Source: a bacterium (lineage in GTDB: Bacteria > Hinthialibacterota > Hinthialibacteria > Hinthialibacterales > Hinthialibacteraceae). Taken from it: a stretch of 64,000 nt of DNA. Made by a program: the position numbers and the translations under genes. The DNA is taken from assembly GCA_016125385.1 (NCBI GenBank), contig WGLV01000022.1, positions 124,001-188,000 on the forward strand. Reading direction: 5' to 3'. Under the pieces are notes generated by a model, which had not been told where the DNA came from, made no database searches, and saw only the letters and a list, made by a program, of their open reading frames with translations. Below, piece after piece: positions 4,309 to 10,773 of the stretch (positions within the stretch are counted from its first letter, which is position 1; each line of letters begins with the position of its first letter).

Positions 4309-4842
4309 ATGAAGTGGAACACGAAAGTATTCGTCTGGACGGTGGCGGCGGTAAGCGTATTGATCGTGAGCGCATGGGCGGTTGAAAACCAGACCAGCGA
4401 TCCCTCCTCGAAATCCACGCTGGATTTTAACGAAAACGATCCCAAAGATTACCCCCTCACCACCCAAATCAATATCGATATCAAGGGTTTGGCCAATTTC
4501 GGGACGGTGTACATGCTCGAAGGCATCGACAATGAAACCACCGTCATTTCTGAAGGGGGAAAAACCAGCGCCGGCGCCACGCGCTGGGCGCGTCTGGTGT
4601 TTCATGGAGTCTTCGATAAACGCATTCGCGACTGGCGTATCGACGTAATCAGTGGAAAAGTCGACAAGCGCGACATCCAGGTTGACCTGTATAACAAGGG
4701 CGGCCGCCGGGTTATGCGCTACATGTTCCGTAACTGCTGGCCGGTGCGTTTCACCCTGCCTCCGCTTTCGGTCGACGGCGCGACGCGCTATCAGGAACGG
4801 GTTGAATTCGTCTACGACACGTTTGACGTGATCGATAACTGA
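4309..4842 (+). CDS. Secreted protein of unknown function
   Basis: A 177-residue protein that begins with a typical signal peptide (MKWNTKVFVWTVAAVSVLIVSAWA, cleavage probable after the alanine near residue 24). The mature part has alternating hydrophobic/polar strands (LANFGTVYMLEGIDNETTV, WARLVFHGVFDKRIRDWRIDVISG, RVMRYMFRNCWPVRFTLPPLS), consistent with a beta-sandwich. It ends YQERVEFVYDTFDVIDN, reminiscent of T4-like/Afp conserved phage tail tube proteins (gp19 family), but with an export signal; that resemblance is weak. GGAAAGGGA lies upstream of the ATG. The next gene, also secreted, follows 45 bases later, so an operon is likely. No function can be assigned. Confidence 0.7.
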   Translation: MKWNTKVFVWTVAAVSVLIVSAWAVENQTSDPSSKSTLDFNENDPKDYPLTTQINIDIKGLANFGTVYMLEGIDNETTVISEGGKTSAGATRWARLVFHGVFDKRIRDWRIDVISGKVDKRDIQVDLYNKGGRRVMRYMFRNCWPVRFTLPPLSVDGATRYQERVEFVYDTFDVIDN

Positions 4843-8867: not shown

Positions 8868-10667
8868 ATGCATCTGGGTAAGACCACAGCGAAACTGGTA
8901 GCGTGTCTGGCTGTGTTCGCCTGCTGCGTATCGTATACATACGCACAAGACGAATAACCAGCTGGACCCGAAGCGAGCATCTCGCTTCGCGGAGTGACTG
9001 AGCAAGACCTGACGGATGAAAACATCACGACAGGACGAGCGACGGGGCTGCCCGTGGTTGGCGTTGAAACCACGGTATATCTCGTCGGAGGGGGAAGCGT
9101 GGCGGAAGGCGCGACGATTGCGGCGTATGCCTGGACCATCACCGGTCCGGACTTCTCGGCGGAATCTTCGGATCAGAATCCGACCTTCAGCCCGCCCAAA
9201 GTAGGCGTCTACACGGTGAAATTGGTGATTACCGATTCCAACGGCGCCCAGAGTGAAGCGGCTGAAACCACCGTGACCGCCGCGAAATACATGGGCATCA
9301 GCAACTGCTCGGCGTGCCACAGCGGCGCTCTGCCCACCGTGGCCGACAAAGTAACCGGATGGAAAGAAACCGGCCACGCGACTTTCTTCAGTGAAGAGAT
9401 CGACAATGGCGGCAGCCACTATGGTGAAAACTGCATCCATTGTCACACGGTCGGCTATGACGAACTCGCTAACAATGGCGGATTCGACGACGTACAGGCC
9501 GAAGCGGGCTGGGTTTTCCCCGCCACCATCGAAGAAGGAAACTGGGAAACGCTGGAAACCGTGTATCCCAAACTGGCCAATCTCGCCAATATCCAGTGCG
9601 AGAGCTGCCACGGCCCGGGAAGCCAGCACAACGGCAATCCGGCCGGTATCGCGGTCAGTCTCGATGCCAATACATGCGGTTATTGCCATGACGCGATGAC
9701 CCACCACGTGAAGAACTACGAGTGGGACACCTCAATGCACGCCAATCCGACGGCGTATCCAACCGGCCCCGGTCGTGAGGGCTGTGTGGAATGTCACTCT
9801 GGTATTGGTTTCGTGCAGACCCATGACCCCGACTATGCGGATGAGGAAATCTCGACCGACGCGGCGCCCATCAGCTGTGCGGTTTGTCATGATCCTCACA
9901 ACGCCGACAATCCCCATCAGGTGCGAGCCATGGGCGATGTCGAATTGGGCAATGGCGTCGTGGTTTCGGCGGATGAAGCCGGTATGGGCGCGCTCTGCAT
10001 GAACTGCCACAAATCACGTCAGAACGCGAGCGAATACGCGGTGGAATATCACTCGCACTTCGGTCCCCATCACGGTCCCCAATCGGATCTGCTGAAAGGG
10101 ACGGGCGGTTACGAGTATGAAGGCGTTGTCTACGCTGCCTTCTCGCCTCACATGAAACTGACCGGCGATTCATGCGTTTCCTGCCATATGTCGGCGACTC
10201 CGGCGGATGCGCCTTCGCGTTCCGTTGGCGGTCACTCGTTCCGTATGAGCGCGGCGGCGGGCTTGCTTGAAAATGTGACGGAAGACGTGGAAAACACGGC
10301 GGTCTGCTCCGCGTGCCACGGCGACGTTCCTTCATTCAACTACCTCGCCAAGGGCGATTACGACGGCGACGGCGAGCAGGAAGGCATTCAGGATGAAATC
10401 CACGGTCTGCTGGCCCTGGTCGGCAAGCAACTGCCTCCCTACGGTGATGAAGCCTTCACGGTTACGGAAGAGTACAACACGGAAGAGTTGAAAGCGGCCT
10501 ACAATTGCACCTTCATCGAAGAAGACAAGAGCGGCGGCGTTCACAATCCGAAGTATTCCGTCCAGTTGCTTCAGAGTTCGTATCACGCGATGACGGGTCA
10601 GGACGTGCCCAACGCCGACATCATCATCACGTGGACCACGAACGTGTCCGATTGGAGTGAGATGTAA
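8868..10667 (+). CDS. Secreted multiheme c-type cytochrome with PKD-like domain, interrupted by an in-frame TAA
   Basis: The ATG at 8868, preceded by AGGGGG, encodes a signal peptide (MHLGKTTAKLVACLAVF through AQDE) and then meets TAA at 8955-8957. The same frame continues without another stop to 10667. After the stop come PAGPEASISLRG, a PKD-like beta domain (about residues 55-130, ending GVYTVKLVITDSNGAQ), then nine CxxCH haem sites: CSACH, CIHCH, CESCH, CGYCH, CVECH, CAVCH, CMNCH, CVSCH and CSACH. A c-type cytochrome must be exported, so a start at the downstream GTG (8994) without a signal peptide would give no functional product. The gene is therefore either a fresh nonsense mutant, a sequencing error, or read through. 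The likely role is periplasmic or outer-surface electron transfer. Terminator follows at 10743. Confidence 0.8.
8955..8957 (+). other. In-frame TAA stop inside the cytochrome gene
   Basis: Codons read GAA TAA CCA directly after the signal peptide, in the same frame as the nine-haem domain. UAA is not a known selenocysteine or pyrrolysine codon. A single base change from GAA, CAA or AAA would explain it. Confidence 0.8.
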
Positions 10668-10742: not shown

Positions 10743-10773
10743 AAAGAGGAACCTCCGGGTTCCTCTTTTTTTT
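10743..10773 (+). terminator. Intrinsic terminator after the cytochrome gene
   Basis: AAAGAGGAACC (10743-10753), loop TCCG, GGTTCCTCTTT (10758-10768), with a run of eight T. It also faces the end of convergent comB. Confidence 0.92.

Follow-up and report, generated by a model that had tools for sequence, protein, structure and literature searches.

Belinky et al. (PMC7918605) argue that many bacterial genes contain in-frame stop codons and that readthrough may occur at some of them. Single-nonsense pseudogenes and stop polymorphisms of this kind carry one in-frame stop in a gene that is otherwise open and well preserved (PMC7918605), as does the gene described here. Systems of stop-codon recoding, that is selenocysteine at UGA, pyrrolysine at UAG and programmed readthrough, also resemble the present locus in having an in-frame stop, an open frame after it and a hairpin. 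Here, however, the codon is UAA, no dedicated tRNA was found, the stop is not conserved and the hairpin is unexceptional. In E. coli, both RF1 and RF2 recognise UAA, and UGA is the codon at which readthrough was demonstrated; the same work calls such events rare among bacteria (PMC5373646). A survey of 191 prokaryotic genomes for additional amino acids encoded by stop codons turned up no promising candidate (PMC1914089). Our literature search returned no multihaem cytochrome gene interrupted by an in-frame stop.

At the protein level, the interrupted gene belongs with a nonahaem PKD-type family. Its members L003, L004, L005 and L008, from the same bacterial family, and L022, from the genome itself, share with it a signal peptide, a PKD-like part at the N-terminus, an identical order of nine CxxCH motifs and a conserved C-terminal part. 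Unlike the interrupted gene, these members are free of stops, fall in a different clade and lie upstream of genes for a tetrahaem c554-type cytochrome and a beta-barrel-like protein. Domain-level sequence matches over the Pfam cut-off were also obtained with the MtrC/MtrF-like (PF22113) and cytochrome c7 (PF14522) families. MtrC, however, has a ten-haem arrangement, whereas the protein considered here would have nine haems together with a PKD domain, and its gene has no partner genes beside it.

The window, that is the whole stretch of 64,000 nucleotides analysed, contains the features collected in Table 1. Translation from ATG 8868 gives MHLGKTTAKLVACLAVFACCVSYTYAQDE, then the in-frame TAA, then PAGPEASISLRGVTEQDL... 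in the same frame. The first-pass annotation had described a signal peptide, a TAA and an open frame to 10667 with a PKD-like domain and nine CxxCH motifs, and all of this was recovered from the sequence, its translation, the Pfam search and the motif count. ATG 8868 is preceded, about 9 nt upstream, by a plausible ribosome site, AGGGGG, and the signal peptide has a basic start followed by a hydrophobic core. In the body, the K319L-like_PKD match has an E-value of 9.4e-7, and exactly nine CxxCH motifs start at body residues 117, 159, 214, 240, 276, 307, 347, 406 and 450. The codon usage of the body is genome-like in its own frame only (score 0.213 and GC3 0.69, against -0.416 and -0.353 in the shifted frames). 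The signal-peptide part scores lower than the body (-0.002) but falls in the range spanned by 213 signal-peptide-like N-termini from the same genome, of which 32% score as low. The pairing of signal peptide and body is not a matter of chance, since intact homologues keep the same order in one frame. A frameshift in place of a nonsense codon was ruled out: both sides of the stop share one frame, and the remaining forward frames are closed between 8840 and 9020. Downstream of the gene, the terminator scan flagged no candidate, the terminator-like hairpin of Table 1 included.

Table 1. Features of the interrupted gene and of related loci. Positions without prefix refer to the window; G000 is the genome that contains it.
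Feature	Position	Strand	Basis
Signal-peptide ORF, 29 codons, ending at the TAA; likely cleavage after TYA	8868..8957	+	sequence, translation; cleavage by eye
In-frame TAA, within the linker of variable length that joins signal peptide and conserved body	8955..8957	+	sequence; homologue comparison
Perfect 9-bp hairpin, CGAAGCGAG-CAT-CTCGCTTCG; probably incidental	8969..8989	+	folding
Nonahaem cytochrome c body, 569 open codons and terminal TAA (10665-10667)	8958..10667	+	translation, Pfam, codon usage
PKD domain PF22352 (body residues 37-107)	9066..9278	+	Pfam
Span of the nine CxxCH haem-binding motifs	9306..10319	+	motif search
Terminator-like 11-bp hairpin and T run	10743..10768	+	hairpin search, sequence
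Multihaem cluster with the paralogue L022	L105:5549-12849 (G000:C32)		neighbour-gene inspection; shared in part with family genomes
L113, alpha-L-rhamnosidase (GH78-type) with signal peptide; one in-frame TAG, 935 codons in all, rest open	L113:1835-4639 (G000:C74)	-	
L191, 640 codons, no Pfam match; one interior TAG	L191:6218-8137 (G000:C63)	-	

Among 61 related and reference genomes searched, same-family homologues were found in five (G001-G005), each of another genus, with 33-36% identity. No closer copy is present among the 14 genomes of the phylum that were compared, and homologues occur in all nine genomes of a second phylum. A genome-collection search for close orthologues returned a sole match, on a Verrucomicrobia contig (L032). 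Wherever the N-terminus of a homologue is covered (G001-G005, the second phylum, L032 and a paralogue in the same genome), the signal peptide leads into the body without a stop. The TAA is thus confined to the window copy and has no counterpart in any relative compared. Nine haem motifs are found in nearly all full-length homologues; in six aligned members, which conserve the motif order, the C and H of the motifs are invariant columns. One homologue (L006:1156-2988, in G005) has eight CxxCH motifs, the second one being altered, and a shorter C-terminus. The first-pass annotation had suggested looking for a sense codon at 8955 in homologues; no homologue with a covered N-terminus has a stop between signal peptide and body. 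Identity to the nearest relatives is only about 30-38%, and the TAA falls just past the cleavage site in a linker that varies in length and does not align, so that the ancestral codon is unreadable from the alignment.

The same genome contains a second, intact copy (L022, contig C32). In a maximum-likelihood tree, this paralogue groups with the homologues of G001-G005, and the window copy is joined with L032 (support 97/93), the branch of L032 being long. No orthologue of the window copy was found in the five genomes G001-G005. The neighbours of the paralogue encode an 11-haem/cytochrome b561 protein, a tetrahaem c554-type cytochrome, a weakly beta-barrel-like protein and another 11-haem cytochrome. 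At L003, L004, L005 and L008, a tetrahaem c-type gene comes next, followed by a gene resembling an outer-membrane protein. The layout of the paralogue's cluster suggests a possible porin-cytochrome conduit. None of these cluster partners lies alongside the window copy, the flanking genes of which are on the opposite strand. A role in extracellular electron transfer, which the first-pass annotation had proposed for the window gene, is plausible for the family and putative for this copy, which stands without the cluster partners of its paralogue. The window copy looks dispensable, because it is solitary and grouped with the Verrucomicrobia sequence while the intact paralogue holds the cluster partners. 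It thus looks like an extra, patchily distributed copy, the loss of which would be tolerated.

Single in-frame stops were also searched for in 2.40 Mb of the genome (43%, with slight overlap of some stretches, about 1636 gene-like frames). Two kinds of target were considered: a signal-peptide ORF with a long coding frame continuing in frame behind its stop, and coding frames that become one when a single stop is bridged. Two further genes broken by a single in-frame stop were found, L113 and L191. In L113, the position of the TAG is occupied by Trp in three family relatives and in two solved relatives. In L191, the TAG separates 547 from 92 codons, and relatives in three family genomes, at 42-46% identity, are continuous. 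The remaining hits have the appearance of tandem genes, antisense shadows or upstream ORFs that arose by chance. From L113 and L191 it is clear that this genome has isolated nonsense codons, or isolated errors of the consensus, that share no common context. A system of stops placed after signal peptides was rejected, there being only two real cases in the 2.40 Mb scanned (the window gene and L113) and the interior stop of L191, with stops and contexts that differ.

Taken together, these data suggest that the window gene is a spare copy bearing a nonsense allele of recent origin, which we consider the probable explanation. A single nonsense substitution just past the signal peptide would recently have inactivated a solitary nonahaem, PKD-bearing cytochrome c gene. 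Ribosomes would begin at ATG 8868, produce a signal-peptide stub of 29 residues and halt at the TAA. The haem-binding body would not be produced in exported form, and no holocytochrome would result. Such a loss would be affordable to the cell because the intact paralogue and its cluster partners sit on another contig. Three elements of this account are inferred: the presence of the TAA in the DNA of the organism, the loss of the protein and the recency of that loss. If the gene is dead, its inactivation would be recent, since no other disruption is present in 1.7 kb. With no further stop, frameshift or lost haem ligand in the body, a simple model allows at most about 18-46 mutations (1-2.7% of its length) at the 95% level, on the assumption that the body has evolved neutrally ever since the stop appeared. 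It should be noted that the intact body equally fits a working gene, in which the stop is either a consensus error or read through.

Of the three origins that the first-pass annotation had put forward (a nonsense mutation, an assembly error or programmed readthrough), the first is the best supported, and the last fares badly. Programmed or regulated readthrough of the UAA would yield a controlled amount of full cytochrome, aided by the hairpin at 8969-8989. The intact body after the stop, the C directly following the stop codon, the hairpin beginning 12 nt past the TAA and the argument that some bacterial in-frame stops are read through (PMC7918605) are all consistent with it. Reading of the UAA would require a suppressor tRNA, near-cognate decoding or a stimulating element. 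No suppressor tRNA was found, none of the 44 tRNA genes detected in the genome having an ochre-reading (UUA) anticodon. The hairpin, considered as a readthrough signal, looks ordinary for the gene: the 66-nt stretch after the TAA has a z of -1.35 against shuffles, and along the gene 130 of 549 60-nt stretches show an equal or better fold. Moreover, no relative compared has a stop, and the two other interrupted genes found in the genome carry unrelated nonsense codons, TAG in differing contexts, and lack a similar hairpin. The recognition of UAA by both release factors, the rarity of bacterial readthrough, demonstrated in E. coli at UGA (PMC5373646), and the survey of 191 prokaryotic genomes (PMC1914089) also argue against it. 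Programmed UAA readthrough is thus unsupported beyond the open frame, and we consider it very unlikely. Readthrough at a low, regulated rate, by which the exported nonahaem cytochrome would be scarce or condition-dependent and the UAA would act as a chromosomal switch in a free-living bacterium, is highly improbable. Genuine readthrough of the TAA would represent a rare case of controlled UAA recoding in bacteria, in an electron-transfer gene.

The main rival of the nonsense allele is an error of sequencing, of the consensus or of strain mixing, the gene of the organism being intact with a sense codon. A consensus error fits the sequence equally well, the intact body being its one piece of positive evidence: 569 codons and nine haem motifs are perfectly preserved. 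The assembly comprises 77 contigs (estimated completeness 95.8%, estimated contamination 0.82%), as in a metagenome-assembled or draft genome, and single-base errors would also account for the other two isolated stops. On the other hand, the contig is 427,691 bases long, which suggests adequate coverage, and the sequence itself gives no pointer to an error. Substitution errors are rare in short-read assemblies at high coverage. On balance, an error is possible but rather unlikely. The body could also be translated apart as a cytoplasmic protein, by re-initiation after the TAA at GTG 8994 or later. GTG 8994 is in frame, 36 nt past the stop, but it lacks a ribosome site at the proper distance, has no hydrophobic segment behind it and is not matched by such a start in the homologues. 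Haem attachment to CxxCH motifs occurs outside the cytoplasmic membrane; without export, the motifs of such a protein would receive no haem. Re-initiation is very unlikely, the least probable of the explanations considered.

The stop looks like the ordinary inactivation of a spare copy, or like one wrong base in the assembly, and not like a new translation control. In either case its main importance is for annotation: a gene called automatically from GTG 8994 would yield a cytochrome without signal peptide, which would be misleading. Elsewhere in the window, a 407-residue protein with no Pfam match is encoded after the gene at 4309-4842, which itself combines a signal-peptide-like start with a T4 gp19-like tail-tube domain (PF06841, E 1.6e-11).
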